From contig JAUHWH010000004.1 in assembly GCA_030424715.1 (NCBI GenBank), positions 158,437 through 222,436 of the forward strand: 64,000 nucleotides of DNA, written 5' to 3'. This DNA comes from Bdellovibrionia bacterium. GTDB lineage: Bacteria > Bdellovibrionota > Bdellovibrionia > Bdellovibrionales > JAGQZY01. Each line of letters begins with the position of its first letter. Position 1 is the stretch's first letter. This document shows positions 17,842 through 26,612 of the stretch, piece after piece. The position numbers and the translations under genes are program-made. Under the pieces are notes generated by a model, which did not search any database, had not been told where the DNA came from, and worked only from the letters and a program-made list of their open reading frames with translations.

Positions 17842-17850
17842 GGGGAGTTG

Positions 17851-18855
17851 ATGGATTTGCAAAATCGCCAAAGTGATGTTTTGTCAGCCGAAGAAGCCAG
17901 TCACGAGGGGCCATGGGAAAACAGTTTGCGCCCCAGTTGTTTTGACGACTTTCCTGGGCAAACCAAAATTGTTGAGAAACTGAAAATTTATATTCAAGCT
18001 GCCAAACAAAGAAAAGAGCCCATCGACCATGTCCTACTCTCGGGGCCTCCCGGTTTGGGAAAAACCACTTTGGCTTTTCTGTTGGCCCAAGAAATGAACG
18101 TTGATATTAAGACTACCTCTGGGCCAGCCTTAGACAAAAAGGGAGATCTGGCCGCACTGTTAACCAGTTTGACCGACAACTCGATTCTTTTTATTGACGA
18201 GATCCACCGTTTGAATAGAACCGTTGAAGAGTATCTTTATAGCGCCATGGAAGATTACTATCTCGACATTATGGCGGGTGAGGGCTTAGGGGCCCGCTCC
18301 ATGAAATTTCAATTGGCTCCCTTCACTCTCATTGGAGCCACCACTCGTGCGGGCTTACTCAATGGCCCCTTTCGAGACCGCTTTGGAATCGTCGAGCGCC
18401 TGTCTTTTTATGAAAAAGAGGAATTGTTAAAAATATTACAAAGATCAGGCGCCCTGTTAAAAGTGGATTTGCACGACGAGGGGGCTACTGAGATCGCCCG
18501 TCGTTCAAGAGGCACTCCCAGGATTGCCAATCGGCTCCTGAAGCGAGTGCGAGATTTTGCCGAGGTTGAAAATCAGGGTGTTATTACCGCTGAGTTGGCC
18601 ATGCGTGCTCTCGATCGTATGGAGGTTGATCATCTTGGGCTTGACGATATGGACCGTAAAGTTCTAGGAATCATCTTAAATAAATTTGCTGGCGGACCGG
18701 TCGGAATTGAGACCTTGGCATCGGGACTCTCCGAGGATAAAGGCACCATCGAAGAGGTCTATGAACCTTACCTTATACAAGAGGGATTGATTCAGAAAAC
18801 CCCCCGTGGTCGAATTATTACAGAACTTGGAAAAACCCATTTTCGCTCAACTTAA
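17851..18855 (+). CDS. ruvB: Holliday junction branch-migration ATPase RuvB
   Basis: The product is about 334 residues and carries Walker A (GPPGLGKTT), Walker B (LFIDEIHRL), sensor 1 (LIGATTRAG), the arginine finger segment (GPFRDRFG), sensor 2 (RGTPRIANRLLKRVRDFA) and a C-terminal winged helix (GLIQKTPRGR). The ATG at 17851 is chosen; a TTG at 17848 directly before it is the other option. A GGGGAG follows the ruvA stop. Confidence 0.97.
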   Translation: MDLQNRQSDVLSAEEASHEGPWENSLRPSCFDDFPGQTKIVEKLKIYIQAAKQRKEPIDHVLLSGPPGLGKTTLAFLLAQEMNVDIKTTSGPALDKKGDLAALLTSLTDNSILFIDEIHRLNRTVEEYLYSAMEDYYLDIMAGEGLGARSMKFQLAPFTLIGATTRAGLLNGPFRDRFGIVERLSFYEKEELLKILQRSGALLKVDLHDEGATEIARRSRGTPRIANRLLKRVRDFAEVENQGVITAELAMRALDRMEVDHLGLDDMDRKVLGIILNKFAGGPVGIETLASGLSEDKGTIEEVYEPYLIQEGLIQKTPRGRIITELGKTHFRST

Positions 18856-18864
18856 GGTGGACCA

Positions 18865-19773
18865 TTGTTTTTACAAAAAACTCTAAAAAATAAAGCCGTG
18901 ATCAAGGGTGTGGGTCTACACAAGGGGATTGAAAATACTCTTTCTTTTTGCCCGGCGCCAGCGAATGCGGGGATCCATTTGGTTCGAACAGATCTGGAAG
19001 GTTGCCCATCGGTACCCGTTCATGTTGACCACGTGAAGGCGACATCCTTGGCGACAACTCTTGGCACCGATCGTTTTGTTGTGTCAACCGTCGAGCATTG
19101 TTTGTCGACATTGGCGGCCTTTCGAATCGATAACGTTTATCTTGAACTTCGCGGCAGTGAGATTCCCATCGGCGATGGAAGTGCCAAAGTTTTTATGGAT
19201 GAAATTCGGAAGGCCGGAACAATTGAACAGTCGGAGCCCCGAAAATATTTGTACATCACTAAACCGATTTACTGCGGCACTGAAGAGAAACATGCCTACG
19301 TGGTGCCCTATAATGGTTTAAGAGTCAGTTGCACGATCGACTTTGATCATAAGATGATCGGGCAGCAGTTTGTTGACGTTGATATCAACGAGCAGACCTT
19401 TGCCAGTGAGCTTGCTGGTGCACGAACCTTTGGTTTTGTGAAAGACATCGAGACAATGCGCGAGATGGGACTGGCCATGGGGGCTTCTCTTGATAACGCC
19501 ATTGCCATTTCCGACGATAAAATTATGAACCCTGGCGGCCTGCGTTTTGAGAATGAATTTGTTCGCCACAAAGCCATGGATGCTCTGGGTGACCTGATGA
19601 CCTTGGGACGGCCTCTTATGGGGCACGTGGTTCTATTTAAGGCGGGTCATGATCTTCTTAACCAATTGGTACAGAAAATTCTGGATTCACCAGAGTGTCA
19701 TCAGGAGCTTGAATTGGGGGCCGGTCTCCCGGTTTTTGAGAATTTTGATGTCCCTTTCAGCGGAAGAGCTTGA
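18865..19773 (+). CDS. lpxC: UDP-3-O-acyl-N-acetylglucosamine deacetylase LpxC
   Basis: The 302-residue protein has the two LpxC domains and the zinc/catalytic set: Glu77-His78 in STVEHCLS, His235 and Asp239 in RHKAMDALGD, and His262 in the KAGHDLLN helix. It catalyses the first committed step of lipid A synthesis, showing that the host makes LPS. The start is TTG at 18865 with AAGGTGG 4 bases upstream. It follows ruvB with a 9-base gap and is probably read through from ruvCAB, an unusual partner for an LPS gene. Confidence 0.96.
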   Translation: MFLQKTLKNKAVIKGVGLHKGIENTLSFCPAPANAGIHLVRTDLEGCPSVPVHVDHVKATSLATTLGTDRFVVSTVEHCLSTLAAFRIDNVYLELRGSEIPIGDGSAKVFMDEIRKAGTIEQSEPRKYLYITKPIYCGTEEKHAYVVPYNGLRVSCTIDFDHKMIGQQFVDVDINEQTFASELAGARTFGFVKDIETMREMGLAMGASLDNAIAISDDKIMNPGGLRFENEFVRHKAMDALGDLMTLGRPLMGHVVLFKAGHDLLNQLVQKILDSPECHQELELGAGLPVFENFDVPFSGRA

Positions 19774-19875
19774 CCCCTATACTCCTCGCAGGTAATCCCA
19801 AAGCTATCTATAAACAAGTGTTTTGATCGATCGATATCGGTCTATGACAGAGGGCTTAACTGGCGAGGAGATGTC

Positions 19876-20988
19876 ATGATTATCGGAGTTCCAAAAGAGA
19901 TAAAAATTAGTGAAAATCGCGTAGGATTAACTGAGGCTGGCGTCCGCCAGTTGGTTTTACAGGGACACAAGGTTGCCGTAGAAAAAGATGCCGGATTGGG
20001 CTGTTTCATTACCAATGAAGATTATATCGATGCTGGGGCGACCATCCTCGATACGGCCAAAGAGATCTACGAGTCCTCTGAGATGATTATCAAAGTGAAA
20101 GAGCCTTTGCCCGATGAGTATGACTTGTTGCAAGAGAAACAAATTTTATACACCTACCTCCATTTGGCGGCGGAGCCCCAGTTAACCAAAGTGCTATGTG
20201 ATCGAAAGGTCAAAGCGGTGGCCTACGAGACGATCGAGGATGCCCGTGGCGGCCTGCCTTTGTTGACTCCGATGTCGGAAGTCGCGGGGCGTATGGCGAC
20301 TCAAGTCGGCGCCTTTTACCTGCAAAGAGACAAGGGTGGTAAAGGAATCCTTTTGGGGGGCGTGACCGGAGTGAAAAGAGGACGAGTGACCATTCTCGGT
20401 GGCGGCGTGGTCGGGGTGAACGCAGCTCAAATGGCTGTCGGCCTGGGCGCTGAGGTTCGTATCATTGATGTTAATCATTCGCGCCTCGAGTATCTTGACC
20501 ATATTTTCAACGGCCAAGTGACCACGGTCTACTCCAACCAATTGAATATTGAAGAGTCGGTCTTAGAGTCTGACCTCGTGGTTGGTGCCGTTTTGTTGGC
20601 GGGCCGTAAAGCGCCCAAGTTGGTCACAAAAGAAATGATAGAAACCATGAGCCCAGGATCGGTCGTCGTCGACGTTGCTGTGGACCAAGGAGGCTGTATT
20701 GAGACCTGTCGTCCAACAAGCCATACCAATCCGACCTTTGAGATTAATGATGTGATTCACTACTGCGTACCAAATATGCCTGGAGTTGTAGCGCGAACGT
20801 CAACTTATGCATTGACGAACGTCACTTTCCAATACGCATCGATCATTGCCAAGTTGGGTCTCGAAGATGCTGTGAAAGCCAATCCATTGCTCGAAAAGGG
20901 CGTCAATGTTTATGGTGGCAGCGTGACTTACGAGGCTGTGGCTTCAGATTTGGGGATGGAATACACTCCTTACTCTAAAATGATTTAA
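19876..20988 (+). CDS. ald: Alanine dehydrogenase
   Basis: The 370-residue protein has the Ald/PNT N-terminal domain (MIIGVPKEIKISENRVGLT), the substrate segment KVKEPLP, YLHLA with the catalytic His, and the NAD-binding Rossmann loop VTILGGGVVGVNAA followed by Asp in IIDVN. It interconverts L-alanine and pyruvate plus ammonia with NAD. An AGGAG ribosome binding site precedes the ATG by about 7 bases. A GATCGATCGATATCG tract lies in the preceding 102-base intergenic region. Together with a glutamate dehydrogenase near 50 kb it suggests use of amino acids as carbon source. Confidence 0.95.
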   Translation: MIIGVPKEIKISENRVGLTEAGVRQLVLQGHKVAVEKDAGLGCFITNEDYIDAGATILDTAKEIYESSEMIIKVKEPLPDEYDLLQEKQILYTYLHLAAEPQLTKVLCDRKVKAVAYETIEDARGGLPLLTPMSEVAGRMATQVGAFYLQRDKGGKGILLGGVTGVKRGRVTILGGGVVGVNAAQMAVGLGAEVRIIDVNHSRLEYLDHIFNGQVTTVYSNQLNIEESVLESDLVVGAVLLAGRKAPKLVTKEMIETMSPGSVVVDVAVDQGGCIETCRPTSHTNPTFEINDVIHYCVPNMPGVVARTSTYALTNVTFQYASIIAKLGLEDAVKANPLLEKGVNVYGGSVTYEAVASDLGMEYTPYSKMI

Positions 20989-20989
20989 G

Positions 20990-21685
20990 CTATTTCAGTT
21001 TCATATAAATATTGCCATAGGTCTCTGTTTCTAAAACAGGGACCTTTTGTTTTTTGAGCTTTGCGACGACTTTTTTGTGAGGGTGACCATATTTGCTCTT
21101 TCTTGCGCTAGCGATAGCCAGCTTAGGGTGAGAGCGCTTGAGTAGGTCCACTGATGTGCTTGTGTGACTACCATGGTGCCCTAAGATAAGAAGTGAGAGT
21201 CTCTTGGGGATATTTTGCGTCCACTTTTTCTCTTCAGACATGGGAGCATCTCCCGTGATGAGAACCTTTTGCTTTATAAGGTACACATGGCTAGACGCAT
21301 TCGCGTCGCCTTGGGGGTTCCCTGTTGAGATAATGGTGATTTTTGAACTGAGCTCTTTACATCGTTTTAGGTGCCGAAGGGTGGCCCCTATTTTGTGTTG
21401 AAAAGGGAAAAAGCAAAAGTTTTTGACCTGGCTGGCGAATCTTTTTACGTAGCGAATGTGATCCCAATCTTGGTGAGTCAAAAGAAGTTGGTTTTTCCTA
21501 CGCCGACAAATGTTTAGAAGTGGCTTCCAACTGACCTTCTCTCCCCCCATGTCGAAATGATAGCAAGTCTGACTATCGATAAAAGTGCTCCAGGACCCTT
21601 GCCCAACATTCCACACAACAAAATTGTAATGCAGGGGAGTTCCGATAGCGCAGGGAAGAGTCGCGAAAAAGAATGCCGTGACCAT
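20990..21685 (-). CDS. ComEC-type metallo-beta-lactamase domain protein (separate gene)
   Basis: From the ATG at 21685 a 231-residue protein begins with one hydrophobic segment (MVTAFFFATLPCAIG), followed by VVWNVGQG, the ComEC-style metal motif LLTHQDWDHI, GDAP and LGHHGSH. This is the C-terminal hydrolase domain normally fused to the ComEC channel, where it degrades the non-transported DNA strand. Here it starts 4 bases after the stop of the channel gene and in another frame. The frame is open further upstream to 21922, but that part overlaps the channel gene and contains no domain. It could be a natural split, a programmed frameshift or a recent frameshift mutation. Confidence 0.8.
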   Translation of the reverse strand: MVTAFFFATLPCAIGTPLHYNFVVWNVGQGSWSTFIDSQTCYHFDMGGEKVSWKPLLNICRRRKNQLLLTHQDWDHIRYVKRFASQVKNFCFFPFQHKIGATLRHLKRCKELSSKITIISTGNPQGDANASSHVYLIKQKVLITGDAPMSEEKKWTQNIPKRLSLLILGHHGSHTSTSVDLLKRSHPKLAIASARKSKYGHPHKKVVAKLKKQKVPVLETETYGNIYMKLK

Positions 21686-21689
21686 GGCT

Positions 21690-22631
21690 TTACCCAATGA
21701 TCCCCCTGCGGCGCTGCCAAAGCAGTGTCCCGGTTTGCAATCCGAGAGCATACAGCCAAAGTGTGAGTTTAGAAGTTTGTATCGACATCTGTAGGGGGGG
21801 CAGACCGAGCCAACTGTATAGTTGGGCAAAACGAAACAGGCGATCCCACAGGGGATCTGTGATTTTAACAAAGCCTTCGTGTAAAAAACTAAGAATGGAA
21901 AGGGGGAACAGCAGCTGACCAATGATCGGAACCAGGAATGAGTTGATCACCACACTCCATGGCGACAGGGCGGCAAAACTCTGGGTCACCGGAAGGATGA
22001 GGAGAAAGACCAAGACGGATTGTGTAAACGCATTTCTCCCCAACCGAATGGCGAGGGCTGCGATCCAGCTGAGCACGAGGGAGTAAGAGTCTAGCTGTGT
22101 GGGCGCTAAACTAAGACAAAAGAGGACGCTAATAAAAATTGCAGAAGAAGAACTCAATTGCCATTTGAACCTCTCATTAAAAAATTGCACCACGATGGCG
22201 ACCCACGCTCGGAGGGCGGGCATCTGAAACTGACAAATCACAACGAATGCTAAAAGAACGAAAATTGATAAAAACGATTTTTCTCGTTTCGCTCCACTGA
22301 GGCCTGCGATCATTTTAGAGAGAAAAACCAAGTGAGCGCCAGAGACAACAAACAAGTGGATGATTCCCATTGTTTTCAAATCGAGGGTGCGACTGTCGTG
22401 GGGGAGGCGCTCGCCACAGACGAGGGCTTGGTATTGACTGCGGTAGAGTGATGAAGGCGCGATGTCGAGACAGCTTTGATGATATTCCCCACTTAAGTCA
22501 GTGAGTGTGAAAAAAAAATCTTGTAGAAAGTAGCCAGAAAAACACGCAACAATTAGGAGAAGAATCATCAAAGGGGAGAGTGCAAAATTGACTCGCTGTT
22601 GTAATTGCGAGCAGAAATAGTACAAACTCAC
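21690..22631 (-). CDS. comEC: ComEC/Rec2 competence channel domain protein
   Basis: The 313-residue, strongly hydrophobic protein carries the competence domain signature: the GIIHLFVVSGAHLVFLS segment, PALRAWVA, and WSVVINSFLVP. About seven to nine membrane helices are evident. The family imports single-stranded DNA across the inner membrane during natural transformation. It starts at GTG 22631. The usual N-terminal OB region is very short, and the hydrolase domain is encoded by the next gene. Another competence gene, dprA, lies 2 kb away. Confidence 0.85.
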   Translation of the reverse strand: MSLYYFCSQLQQRVNFALSPLMILLLIVACFSGYFLQDFFFTLTDLSGEYHQSCLDIAPSSLYRSQYQALVCGERLPHDSRTLDLKTMGIIHLFVVSGAHLVFLSKMIAGLSGAKREKSFLSIFVLLAFVVICQFQMPALRAWVAIVVQFFNERFKWQLSSSSAIFISVLFCLSLAPTQLDSYSLVLSWIAALAIRLGRNAFTQSVLVFLLILPVTQSFAALSPWSVVINSFLVPIIGQLLFPLSILSFLHEGFVKITDPLWDRLFRFAQLYSWLGLPPLQMSIQTSKLTLWLYALGLQTGTLLWQRRRGIIG

Positions 22632-22944
22632 TTGTCCGACAGGGTGAGACAGATTCTGAATTTTCCTAGAAAAAAAGGTGAAAAAATAAGTATTTTCAAT
22701 TGTTTATGTGTGTTCAATTCACGTGCAATTCGCTGAAATCCACGACTGGCTTTGGGTCTAAGGTCCAGTGACCTAGGCATTCCACATTCAGTGTGGATAA
22801 ATCTGGTATTGCCTTAATTTTGATCGACTCAAAGTCCTTTAATTTCGATCTCGCCACTTGTTGGCCTTTAGTAGTGACAACTAATTGTGCAGGCGTAAAA
22901 ACCCTGGCTTGCTCATTGAAGTTGTAACTCGTTACAATAATGTC
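22632..22944. other. Intergenic region with palindromes between comEC and a lipoprotein gene
   Basis: A divergent intergenic region of 313 bases. It is AT-rich next to comEC (a run of A/T at 22671-22705). It contains a TCCACA-TTCAG-TGTGGA hairpin near 22782-22798 and the palindrome annotated separately at 22922. A frame is open from 22885 but does not look coding before 22945. No confident promoter hexamers were assigned. Confidence 0.4.
22922..22937. promoter_or_regulatory. Perfect palindrome TTGTAAC-TC-GTTACAA at a start region
   Basis: Two perfect 7-base arms are separated by TC. The element ends 7 bases before the ATG at 22945, where a ribosome binding site would be expected; none is visible. 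It may be an operator or an RNA hairpin that controls translation of the lipoprotein-LysM pair. Confidence 0.45.
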
Positions 22945-23391
22945 ATGACAAATAAAAAATCAAACTCTCACCTAAATAGATATTGCCTTTTAATAGCCGC
23001 CGTCTTTATAGTTTCCGGTTGCGCTACAAAAGATAAGAAAGACCAAATCTTGAGCTTGCAAAAGATGCGTATTAATAAGCTCGAAAAACAACTGGCCCGC
23101 AAGAATCAGCAGATTCAAAAGATGAAGGTCAAGAAGTGGACGCGACCCGCACGAGCGGCTGAATCGGCGGCCTTTCGGTCATTAAATGAAAAAGTTGCGG
23201 CCAAGCAGTGGGTTGATGCTCTTGAAGAGAGTCGGCGACTGAAGAAGCTCTATCCAAAATCTTTACGCTTAACTAAAATGCGGGCGCAAATTTTTGCAAA
23301 AATGGGTTTAAGAAAGCAAGCGAAGCATGAGGTGAAGATTTTTCGCAACCTTAAAGCCAATCGAAATGGAAAAACGAAAACACGGCGATGA
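22945..23391 (+). CDS. Small lipoprotein with basic coiled coil
   Basis: The ATG at 22945 starts a lipoprotein signal of about 30 residues with lipobox VSGC. The remaining ~118 residues are very basic: a coiled-coil segment (MRINKLEKQLARKNQQIQK) followed by two TPR-like helices. The gene ends in an ATGA overlap with the LysM gene, so the two are probably made together and may act jointly at the cell wall. No recognised family. Confidence 0.75.
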   Translation: MTNKKSNSHLNRYCLLIAAVFIVSGCATKDKKDQILSLQKMRINKLEKQLARKNQQIQKMKVKKWTRPARAAESAAFRSLNEKVAAKQWVDALEESRRLKKLYPKSLRLTKMRAQIFAKMGLRKQAKHEVKIFRNLKANRNGKTKTRR

Positions 23392-24782
23392 AGAGTCTAA
23401 TCAAGCCCCTTGCGATTTTAATTTTCTGCCTACCGGTCTTGCATCCGTCTGGACTCCTGGCACAGACAACGGATGTTGATCGGCAGTTGTATGAAATCTA
23501 TCGGACTTCCTATAGCGAAGAATTGGCTGATGAGCAGTGGTTGCAGCAAATCAAAGGTTTATCCCAGCGTAGCTATGTGGTGACTGCTGGGGACACTCTG
23601 TGGGATTTGAGTCTGGTGTTCTTCGGCGATGGCTTTTTTTGGCCAAAAATTTGGTCGTTTAATGAAAATTTGACGAATCCCCATTTGTTGAGAGTGGGAC
23701 AGCAGATCGAGTTTTTTACTGGGTCCGTCGAACAAGCGCCCGGAGTTGTTGTGGCAGGAAAGAGCACCAATCCTAACGGCGCTGGCCTGACAGAAGTGAC
23801 TGCGAACGACCCCGCAGAAGCTAACGACACCCTGCCCAGTGATCCCTCAGCGCTAAACTCAGCGATCCCTGAATCACGCAAGCGTGTTCCTCCCGTGGTG
23901 ACAGAATTACCCAACACCTTTACTGATTCGAAAACCTACGATTCCTCCAGTTACGGAGAAACGGGTGTGAGCTATGATATTCGCCCACCGGTACAGGCCG
24001 ATTCTCCTTTTGTCGCCCAGTCCTTTCTTTATGGTCAGGGCTGGGACAAATACCCCAAGGTCGGGCGGATCGTTGAATCAGAGAACCACCTCAATCTGAT
24101 TGGCGTAAACCATCGTGTTTATATCAAAAGCTCCGAGAGTCTGAAGGTGGGCGAGAGATTGACCATCATGGGGCGTCAGTATCATTTCGACCGTAATGAC
24201 TACGTCGGAGATGTGATTCGATATCTGGGCACAGTTGAGATCTCCTCTGTTTTAGAAGATCAATTATTTATGGGTACGGTGATTAGCAGTCTGTCTGGTA
24301 TTCGCAATGGCGCCTGGGTCTCGAGAGAAGCGATCCCTGAATTAGCTGCGGATTATTCTGGCCGTCCCTTTGACAAGGTATTAAAAATTATCGGTGGTGG
24401 AATGGACAACGTTTCGAGAATCTACGGTCAAGGCAACGTGGTTTTTCTCGGCGGCGGTGCCAAGAGTGGGGTTCGGGCCGGAGATGTCTTTGGTGTTTAT
24501 CAGAGTCGGGACTTGCGCTATCAGGATTACAAGGTGCGACGCTCCCCTGAACCGATTGGTTATCTAAAAGTCTTTCGAGCCGATCCTGAAATATCGTCAG
24601 CCGTTATTGTTAGTTCTACTGACGTTATTGTGCCGGGTGATGAAACCGGAGCGCCTCAGTGGGGAGCTTCTGCCTCGAACCCTTCTGCCGTGCAGAACCT
24701 TGAATCTTTTGAATCTGAATTTGATTTAAGTGATGATGAGTTTTCGTCTGATCTGGACGAATTTGAATCCGAGATTCAGTAA
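23388..24782 (+). CDS. Exported LysM-domain protein
   Basis: The 464-residue protein has an N-terminal signal (about 1-25). One LysM domain follows at about residues 63-112 (SYVVTAGDTLWDLS ... NPHLLRVGQQI), which binds peptidoglycan. After a Ser/Pro/Thr-rich linker there is a beta-rich C-terminal region with repeated GDVFGVYQ- and RIYGQGNVVFL-like strands, and an acidic tail (DLSDDEFSSDLDEFESE). No catalytic domain was recognised. The arrangement resembles Bdellovibrio-type LysM proteins that attach envelope functions to the wall. Confidence 0.8.
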   Translation: MKSLIKPLAILIFCLPVLHPSGLLAQTTDVDRQLYEIYRTSYSEELADEQWLQQIKGLSQRSYVVTAGDTLWDLSLVFFGDGFFWPKIWSFNENLTNPHLLRVGQQIEFFTGSVEQAPGVVVAGKSTNPNGAGLTEVTANDPAEANDTLPSDPSALNSAIPESRKRVPPVVTELPNTFTDSKTYDSSSYGETGVSYDIRPPVQADSPFVAQSFLYGQGWDKYPKVGRIVESENHLNLIGVNHRVYIKSSESLKVGERLTIMGRQYHFDRNDYVGDVIRYLGTVEISSVLEDQLFMGTVISSLSGIRNGAWVSREAIPELAADYSGRPFDKVLKIIGGGMDNVSRIYGQGNVVFLGGGAKSGVRAGDVFGVYQSRDLRYQDYKVRRSPEPIGYLKVFRADPEISSAVIVSSTDVIVPGDETGAPQWGASASNPSAVQNLESFESEFDLSDDEFSSDLDEFESEIQ

Positions 24783-24858
24783 AATTTCCGTTTTTTTTTA
24801 ACTCAAGTGCCGAGGATCGTTCGTTCCTCTCTGCTCTCTTTTTGCATCTGATGGGAGC

Positions 24859-25509
24859 ATGACGCCTTCAATACTGAGTCCTTCCGAGCTGCCCCGTCTC
24901 TTTGTTCAATCTGAGGAGGCCCCTTCTCAACTCTATTTCTCAGGTGACCCCAGTTTGTTGCAGTGCCCTTTGGTATCCGTAGTCGGTGCCCGAGAGGTTA
25001 AATCGTGGGTGTTGGAGTGGATGGAGAATGAGCTGGGGCCGGCTTTGCACCAGTGTGGTGTTGGAGTCGTTAGCGGTGGTGCGAGGGGCCTTGATCAGTA
25101 TGCCCATGGCTTGGCGATTCGAGGAAACCTACCTACTGTCGTGGTGGTCCCCAGCGGGTTGCAGAACATCTATCCCAAAAAAATTGAGAATTGGCGAAAA
25201 ATTAGCAAGGTTCTGTTTGTATCAGAGTACCTTCCGGCAGTTATCATGAGAAAACATCACTTTCACAAGCGCAATCGGATCATTGCGGGCCTGAGCCCCT
25301 TAACACTTGTTGTGCAAGCCAGTGAAAAGAGCGGAACCATGATGACTGCCCGCAAGGCGTTGGACTATGGCAGGGCTCTGGCGACGTTACCAGGCTCACC
25401 TTTGGACAGTGCTTTCGCTGGCAACAATCAGCTTTTGTATGACGGCGCTTTTCTAATTCGTAACAAGAATGATCTGGTTCAGCTTTTCCAGCGTGAGCTT
25501 AAGGTTTAG
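24859..25509 (+). CDS. dprA: DNA-processing protein DprA (short form)
   Basis: The 216-residue protein contains the Rossmann-like DprA core: VSVVGAREV, VVSGGARGLDQYAH, VVVVPSGLQNIYP, HKRNRIIAGLSPLTLVVQA and KSGTMMTARKALDYGR. The N-terminal SAM-like and C-terminal winged-helix domains found in longer DprA proteins are absent. DprA loads RecA on incoming single-stranded DNA in natural transformation, which fits with comEC nearby. Its stop overlaps the convergent permease gene by 4 bases. The start spacing (GGGAG, 1 base, ATG) is unusually short. Confidence 0.9.
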   Translation: MTPSILSPSELPRLFVQSEEAPSQLYFSGDPSLLQCPLVSVVGAREVKSWVLEWMENELGPALHQCGVGVVSGGARGLDQYAHGLAIRGNLPTVVVVPSGLQNIYPKKIENWRKISKVLFVSEYLPAVIMRKHHFHKRNRIIAGLSPLTLVVQASEKSGTMMTARKALDYGRALATLPGSPLDSAFAGNNQLLYDGAFLIRNKNDLVQLFQRELKV

Positions 25510-26612
25510 TTCCAGTTCTTTTTCAGTAGGGCCAGTCCCGCTGGCAACAAGATGATAGAGGGGAGCCAGGCGGCGAACCAGACGGGCACTGCGGGGGACT
25601 TTAGCAGGCTATTACCGATAATAAAGAGAATCCAGTACACCACAATGACACCAACACTGATGACCCCGCCTCCTGATTTTCCGCTGCGGTTGTTGGTGCG
25701 ACACCCGAGACCGATGCCAACCATGACAAACAATAAGCAGGCAAAGGAGAGAGCGAACCTTTTGTGCCATTCGTATTGAAAGTTGCGCAGCTCTTTGGGA
25801 TCTTTTGTGGTTTTTCGTAAATGGATGAGATCGTCATAGGTCAGACTGTTGATCGATTTGTTCCGCGTTTTTTTATTGGTCGGTTCCACAATTTGTAGGT
25901 CATAGGTTTGGAAGTGGATTTTAGTATGCCCCTCGTCGGACATCTTATGAATATCGCCATTGATCAATCGGACAAAGGCTTTGTAAGAATTAAAACTCTT
26001 CTCGCTAACAATTTTGCCTTTCTCAGAAATGATCGTAGTGGGGCTCGATTCATCCCGCTCGTCGTAGATAAACACGCTCTCGAGCTCTTCAGTGTCTTCA
26101 TTAATTTTATTAGCGTAAACCACAAGATTGAAAAACCCCGAAAACGTGCCTTCACCAATTCGCGAAATAATTTTTGAATTTCCGATGTCAGTGATTAAGA
26201 CCTCAAATTGTCGATTGCCCCAAGGGCCGACTTTAAATGAAGTGTAGCCAGACACGACGGCGATCACCAGTCCTAAGGTCAGACCGGGAGCGATGATCGG
26301 CCACATACTCAAACCCAGGGATTTAAAAGCGATGATTTCGGAATCCCCGGAGAGTCGGTTGTAGGAAAGCACGATAGCAAAAATCAGGCTCATTGGTAAA
26401 ATAGCCGGCAAAAAACTAATGGAGAGGTAAGAGAGAAGGTGCACGAGGGTTCGAAAGCTCACATCGTGCTGCAGAAGAGTGTCGGTGAGCTTAAGGACTT
26501 GAAAGAGGAGGAGTATCGAGACAAAGCTAATGACACCCACGAAAAAGGTGGGGACCATCTCAGAAATAATGTAATAAAAGACGAGTTTAAAACGTTTTAT
26601 TCGGAGCCCCAT
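25506..26612 (-). CDS. LptF/LptG-family lipopolysaccharide export permease
   Basis: The 368-residue protein has the YjgP/YjgQ layout: three N-terminal membrane helices, with SFLPAILPMSLIFAIVLSYNRLSGDSEIIAFKSLGLS as the family signature region, a periplasmic beta-jellyroll-like middle, then three C-terminal helices. Family members form the inner membrane part of the LptB2FG LPS extractor. Only one of the two permeases is present here; whether it is LptF or LptG cannot be decided. It is downstream of kdsA on the same strand, another LPS gene. Confidence 0.9.
   Translation of the reverse strand: MGLRIKRFKLVFYYIISEMVPTFFVGVISFVSILLLFQVLKLTDTLLQHDVSFRTLVHLLSYLSISFLPAILPMSLIFAIVLSYNRLSGDSEIIAFKSLGLSMWPIIAPGLTLGLVIAVVSGYTSFKVGPWGNRQFEVLITDIGNSKIISRIGEGTFSGFFNLVVYANKINEDTEELESVFIYDERDESSPTTIISEKGKIVSEKSFNSYKAFVRLINGDIHKMSDEGHTKIHFQTYDLQIVEPTNKKTRNKSINSLTYDDLIHLRKTTKDPKELRNFQYEWHKRFALSFACLLFVMVGIGLGCRTNNRSGKSGGGVISVGVIVVYWILFIIGNSLLKSPAVPVWFAAWLPSIILLPAGLALLKKNWN

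Follow-up and report, generated by a model that had tools for sequence, protein, structure and literature searches.

ComEC is encoded by two adjacent genes, one for the channel and one for a predicted nuclease, in the Bdellovibrio group

Introduction

ComEC is usually a single protein. In the canonical fused ComEC/Rec2 layout, an OB fold is followed by the Competence channel and then by a nuclease domain of the metallo-beta-lactamase (MBL) fold (9vc6, 9vc9, 30bt and Moorella glycerini 9IC4). According to the available part of PMC12455585, fused ComEC would import one DNA strand, with the MBL domain degrading its partner; by itself, this domain is reported to have poor DNA binding and to become more active with the OB fold on the same chain. 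The same part of that paper presents EndA of Streptococcus pneumoniae as a separate membrane-bound nuclease that degrades the strand and that is not a ComEC-derived MBL. Channel-only ComEC proteins, which have the Competence domain alone, are recorded as a 'C' profile in the accessible part of a domain survey (Pimentel and Zhang, 2018; PMC6299819). The words 'split', 'separate', 'fusion' and 'Bdellovibrio' are absent from the main text of that survey as far as it was available, and the open-licence literature that we searched yielded no paper on ComEC being split in Bdellovibrionota.

Here, we analysed a stretch of 64,000 nucleotides from Bdellovibrionia bacterium (contig JAUHWH010000004.1, positions 158,437 to 222,436 of the forward strand), called the window below, to which all coordinates refer. 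A preliminary description had proposed that ComEC is broken next to a G run at the junction of channel and hydrolase, by a true split, a programmed frameshift, or a sequencing or natural indel. That interpretation as a whole is partly supported, and we are nearly certain that the two-gene ComEC is real and ancestral, a trait long passed down within the Bdellovibrio group.

Results

The window carries a ComEC channel gene and a separate MBL gene

The channel gene lies on the minus strand at 21690..22631. Its open reading frame (ORF) starts with GTG, encodes 313 aa and ends with ...RRRGIIG and a TAA at 21690-21692. The protein matched PF03772 (Pfam Competence) above the cut-off (E 1.6e-19), NCBIfam ComEC models also matched this half, and a profile made from 53 relatives matched solved ComEC chains, e.g. 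residues 240-510 of 9vc6 (E 2e-15). The predicted structure (pLDDT 91.0) consists of helices only, with zero beta strands; since the model has no beta strand, the channel is predicted to lack an OB fold. A fold search with this model against the PDB (library to April 2026) gave no match at E 0.001. PF13567 (DUF4131) did not match the window's channel, and this Pfam model says little about the presence of an OB fold, since a fused relative and two relatives of family f13 were unmatched as well.

The only invariant columns of the channel alignment were two cysteines and one serine. Cys54 (22470..22472, minus strand) and Cys72 (22416..22418, minus strand) are each invariant in 53/53 and 55/55 rows, sit in a short loop at the position where the OB fold would be expected, and are predicted to form a disulfide. 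The pair was retained in all seven MBL-less channels checked, which favours a disulfide within the channel; a disulfide linking the two proteins was set aside on the same observation. A similar pair was seen by eye in a fused relative of family f12 (L108), and the pair is thus not specific to split proteins. In addition, the last 15 residues of the channel carry a net positive charge in 42/46 rows, as would suit an end in the cytoplasm; the break thus falls at a topologically neutral place.

The predicted nuclease gene occupies 20990..21697 on the minus strand. It may start at TTG 21695-21697 (235 aa) or at ATG 21683-21685 (231 aa), and it ends at 20990. Its product scored 22.5 bits against the Pfam Lactamase_B model, 0.2 bits short of the cut-off of 22.7, and matched positions 491-663, the C-terminal part, of the NCBIfam model ComEC_Rec2 TIGR00361 (E 1.6e-18), with a score below the full-length cut-off because only half of ComEC_Rec2 is present. 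The MBL profile matched ComEC chains, e.g. 9vc6 and 9ic4; six ComEC sequences and no other family were matched at E 0.01. The channel and MBL profiles matched the same solved ComEC chains in order (9vc6: 240-510, then 607-793). Furthermore, the top PDB fold match of the MBL model (pLDDT 93.6) was the MBL domain of ComEC in 9IC4 (E 1.5e-13, TM 0.75 by query).

The protein has the metal ligands of a ComEC-type MBL nuclease domain. The HxDxDH motif (H71, D73, D75 and H76, numbered from the ATG; 21458..21475, minus strand) was found in 46/46 and 53/53 rows, as was the invariant G145-D146 with the metal ligand Asp (21248..21253, minus strand), and the HHGS motif (residues 170-173; 21167..21178, minus strand) was found in at least 90% of 46 rows and was invariant in 53 rows. 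Q29, G30 and D45 are also invariant in the 46 rows, and GHPH is almost invariant. H598, D600, D602, H603 and D700, the residues required in 9IC4 according to the available part of PMC12455585, are all matched in the MBL protein.

The MBL protein begins with a hydrophobic segment (MGKAMVTAFFFATLPCAIG...; 21640..21697, end approximate, minus strand) that may be a signal peptide or a signal anchor. Across relatives, the hydrophobic core of the MBL N-termini is short and frequently preceded by Lys or Arg, and from position 13 the MBL profile aligned with fused ComEC 9vc9 from residue 531, which is likewise hydrophobic. Two pairs of cysteines follow. C41 and C60 were present in 53/53 split rows and in both rows of the sister order (f11), and the pair was complete in 0/14 rows from outside the class (8 fused and 6 unlinked). 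C91 and C109 were present in 51/53 split rows, were both missing in each of the three genomes in which one or the other is lacking, and as a pair were absent from the 14 outside-class rows and from f11. From this pattern of co-occurrence, we predict that the MBL protein resides in an oxidising compartment and forms the disulfides C41-C60 and C91-C109.

The junction resembles that of a translationally coupled gene pair

The layout of the junction was as first described: the channel ends with the residues given above, the MBL ORF lies in another frame, which we find to be +1 relative to the channel, and has its own hydrophobic segment, its ATG stands 4 bases past the channel stop, and the RNA of the overlap does read GCAGGGGGATC (C run at 21702-21706 on the plus strand); the TTG overlaps the channel stop. 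The preliminary description had also proposed that slipping by one base in the G run would join the halves. A +1 shift (one base fewer) does join the frames, but the G run is not special in this respect: ahead of the channel end, the MBL frame stays open over 232 nt (ORF start 21922 vs 21690), so a shift anywhere in this overlap would have the same effect. The run forms part of AGGGGG (21702..21707, minus strand), 4 nt upstream of the TTG. For the anti-Shine-Dalgarno sequence, a consensus was used rather than the sequence of the window's genome; the TTG reached a pairing energy of -9.4 kcal/mol and the ATG one of -5.5, and AGGGGG is most likely the Shine-Dalgarno sequence of the MBL gene.

We then compared the second starts of the split loci, chosen without regard to pairing, with out-of-frame start codons within channel genes; the rule yielded no start codon in G043, which was left out (n=45). 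Pairing at -5 kcal/mol or better was found at 25/45 second starts vs 67/995 control start codons (Mann-Whitney p 9e-12, a rough value because the rows are related), and 20/45 second starts had no strong Shine-Dalgarno sequence. Within -30..+10 of the channel stop lay 35/45 second starts, with clusters at -4 and -8; the most frequent position was -4, an ATGA-type overlap (12/45). With starts near the upstream stop and a ribosome site inside the upstream gene, channel and MBL are predicted to be a translationally coupled gene pair.

The split is shared across the order and the class

The survey of the order covered 55 loci, the window's own included, out of 59 genomes; the other four (G029, G032, G038 and G053) gave no channel match initially, and a class-wide search found the channel of G032. 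Forty-six loci had two ORFs, one was fused (G041), and eight had no MBL in the stretch, so that the split accounts for 46 of the 47 loci with both halves. In all 46, the halves lie on one strand with overlapping or adjacent ORFs. The frame offset at the junction was 2 in 28 loci, 1 in 17 and 0 in one. Seven of the split genomes consist of one contig (G011, G016, G027, G030, G033, G042 and G048). Of 58 named loci, most of them titled Bdellovibrionales, Bdellovibrio or Pseudobdellovibrio and with Bdellovibrio bacteriovorus strain kdesi among them, both halves were present in 56 and none was fused; this set is not independent of the 55 loci because many of its contigs are identical. Class-wide, PF03772 was matched in 126/143 genomes, and an open frame of more than 415 aa was found only in G041. 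In the sister order f11, both tested genomes with an MBL were also split.

ComEC in the window and in 45 relatives is thus carried by separate ORFs rather than one polypeptide, and of the three explanations first offered it was the true split that stood, being found at the same place and in differing frames in 45 other species of the order, with a Shine-Dalgarno signal above background. The preliminary description had further named relatives that all share the split, with an intact ribosome site, as refuting evidence. Taken as a test of the frameshift, this pattern is nearly found: the split is shared (46/47), and roughly every second start has a strong site.

If the G run of a normal comEC had been broken by misassembly or by the natural insertion of one base, this would explain why one base fewer joins the frames, and homopolymers are prone to error. 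However, the 45 other species are broken at the same domain junction, at both other offsets and with no G run, and seven one-contig genomes are among them; moreover, start signals and an export-type segment of its own mark the second half in nearly all. The relatives already refute such an indel, to which we assign practically no probability. Programmed frameshifting by ribosomes at the G run, yielding a joined ComEC plus a short channel, would be compatible with an MBL frame that is open throughout the overlap. It would call for a conserved slippery site and a single offset, and neither was found: a run of at least five G occurs at 1/46 split junctions, the window's own, and the +1 shift needed in the window is replaced by the other shift in 28/46 loci and by none in one. 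In addition, a Shine-Dalgarno sequence explains the G run better (see the TTG pairing above), and we consider the frameshift extremely improbable.

Loss and apparent re-fusion of the MBL gene

In 14 of the 15 MBL-less loci examined, the gene for alanine dehydrogenase lies at most 453 nt from the channel gene or overlaps its open frame. Since a gap of this size is too small for a 690-nt gene, the MBL gene is gone in place. The channel ORF was kept in 14 MBL-less loci (L190-L197, L066, L069, L075, L076, L077 and L079) from eight genera and three families. Within the order, the absence of MBL from 8/55 loci indicates that the nuclease is dispensable in some lineages; among the eight, the locus of G052 is interrupted by a contig end and shows the split on the genome's other contig (L171), and in G034 alanine dehydrogenase was not in view.

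The loss of MBL in some genomes could be read as a sign that the locus is decaying into a pseudogene, as could a channel that lies in two frames in one MAG (L134). Both ORFs of the window are intact, though, and the key residues are conserved class-wide, which makes decay very improbable. The two channel frames of that MAG (L134:2968-3969) reflect an indel or an assembly error.

The fused locus of G041 (L071) is the sole fused copy found in the class, a frame of 650 aa. G041 nests among the split rows of the tree and has all four class-type MBL cysteines, which gives it the appearance of a re-fusion, and it is apparently a re-fusion of channel and MBL. This genome is a MAG of 690 contigs with the locus on a contig of 3.9 kb, and an indel error at its junction is possible.

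Gene neighbourhood and other competence genes

The next gene downstream of MBL, encoding alanine dehydrogenase, converges on it and ends at 20988, and the unit therefore comprises two genes only, channel and MBL. The order LpxC - alanine dehydrogenase - MBL, channel - LysM protein - DprA was found in many of 90 loci; in the window it spans 17848-26612, with a LysM-region gene ahead of DprA. One locus with this gene order and a Bdellovibrionales ComEC region (L135) comes from a record titled Streptomyces griseus and is probably a misnamed MAG. DprA of the window (24859-25509) matched TIGR00732 below its cut-off (E 1.5e-47); it is just 216 aa long and is without the extra domains of longer DprA proteins.

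ComEA above cut-off was found in 0/59 genomes of the order; in the control for this search, a signal was found in 9/14, above cut-off in five. Sub-threshold ComEA matches mostly fell within open frames of about 740-890 aa, which we take to be Tex-like. ComF was likewise searched for in the window's own genome and not found at E 0.001. The order thus has ComEC and DprA yet no ComEA over the cut-off, and another periplasmic DNA receptor may serve.

MBL proteins of other classes

Fused ComEC is frequent in other classes. Of 26 other-class channel loci, 12 encode the channel and the MBL domain in a single ORF, whereas 14 had no nearby MBL; adjacent but separate channel and MBL ORFs were found in 0/26. 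Among the matches listed, 52/67 outside-class MBL domains lie in open frames of at least 500 aa, and in family f18, which has short channel ORFs, few members gave an MBL match. Families f13 and f24, from other classes of the same phylum, have a stand-alone ComEC-type MBL of ~300 aa on a different contig from the channel (L182-L187, from G144, G152, G178, G190, G166 and G193), maybe a second separation.

In the MBL tree, these unlinked proteins are placed among fused ones, and once G041 is removed, a single branch (support 100/98) sets the split rows apart. A single clade of split and unlinked MBLs gave p-AU 0.0003 when the nested G041 was counted as fused, and p-AU 0.27 when G041 was left out and 13 split rows were dropped for speed. 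A common origin of split and unlinked MBLs is therefore not rejected, and we do not regard an independent second separation of f13 and f24 as proven.

Discussion

The reading that we consider best, and probable, is a two-component ComEC made of a channel and a translationally coupled, exported nuclease, its function being inferred. One short two-gene unit would produce a membrane DNA channel without an OB fold and a separate nuclease of the MBL fold. The break would fall in a positively charged cytoplasmic stretch. In fused ComEC, a hydrophobic segment lies between this stretch and the nuclease domain; here, that segment would have become the export signal or anchor of the separate nuclease. 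MBL translation would be initiated from a ribosome site within the end of the channel gene (AGGGGG, then TTG or ATG); because this site is inside the first gene, we propose that translation is coupled. In the periplasm, two disulfides would stabilise the MBL nuclease, which would digest the strand that stays outside as the channel draws its partner inward. This division of labour between channel and MBL protein would be as in fused ComEC, and natural transformation in these bacteria is predicted as likely. Against this reading count the ComEA and ComF searches, which gave nothing over the cut-offs, the loci that have no MBL, the starts that have no strong Shine-Dalgarno sequence, the fused G041, the channel model's lack of a significant PDB fold match and the Lactamase_B score just short of the Pfam cut-off.

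The exported MBL could instead work apart from the channel, as an independent periplasmic or secreted nuclease that digests, e.g., prey DNA. It is a separate, export-type, cysteine-stabilised protein, the channel survives where the MBL gene is lost, and the OB fold, an aid to the nuclease in fused ComEC (PMC12455585, available part), is missing from the modelled channel. The genes are, however, adjacent and overlapping in the loci with both halves (46/47, the other being fused), the pair holds its place between alanine dehydrogenase and the LysM gene, and one lineage appears to have re-fused it. We therefore regard independent action as unlikely, and joint work of MBL and channel as the likelier mechanism by a good margin of confidence. 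More tentatively, and with somewhat less than even confidence, we suggest that ComEC is modular: within one phylum, the nuclease would have been separated from the channel perhaps twice at the same junction (staying adjacent in the window's class and becoming unlinked in f13 and f24), gained an export signal and disulfides, been lost from several lineages and been re-fused once, and it would act in trans without OB fold or ComEA.

A class with a two-protein ComEC and a channel predicted to lack the OB fold is a natural test of the OB-fold model in the available part of PMC12455585. If true, a nuclease acting in trans contradicts the view that the OB fold is needed on the same chain for efficient cutting. 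The split MBLs also offer soluble nucleases, predicted to be disulfide-stabilised, for biochemistry. In addition, single-protein domain surveys (e.g. PMC6299819, in its accessible part) will score these species as nuclease-lacking.

Like fused ComEC/Rec2, the halves in the window share the chain order, the MBL fold and the HxDxDH, GD and HHGS motifs; unlike it, they are two genes, with no OB fold in the channel model and with an export segment and two cysteine pairs in the MBL. The channel ORF has the Competence domain alone and would be scored 'C' by a single-protein survey, as in the accessible text of PMC6299819; in contrast to a channel-only ComEC, the window has its predicted nuclease as the next gene, and this is truly gone in 14 loci of the class. 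The window's MBL resembles the stand-alone MBLs of f13 and f24 in being its own protein with an N-terminal hydrophobic segment, whereas in those families the MBL is on another contig, the channel is longer (about 460 aa) and class-type cysteines are absent. Finally, as with EndA of Streptococcus pneumoniae, strand degradation is assigned to a separate nuclease, as we propose for the window; unlike EndA, the predicted nuclease of the window is a ComEC-derived MBL.
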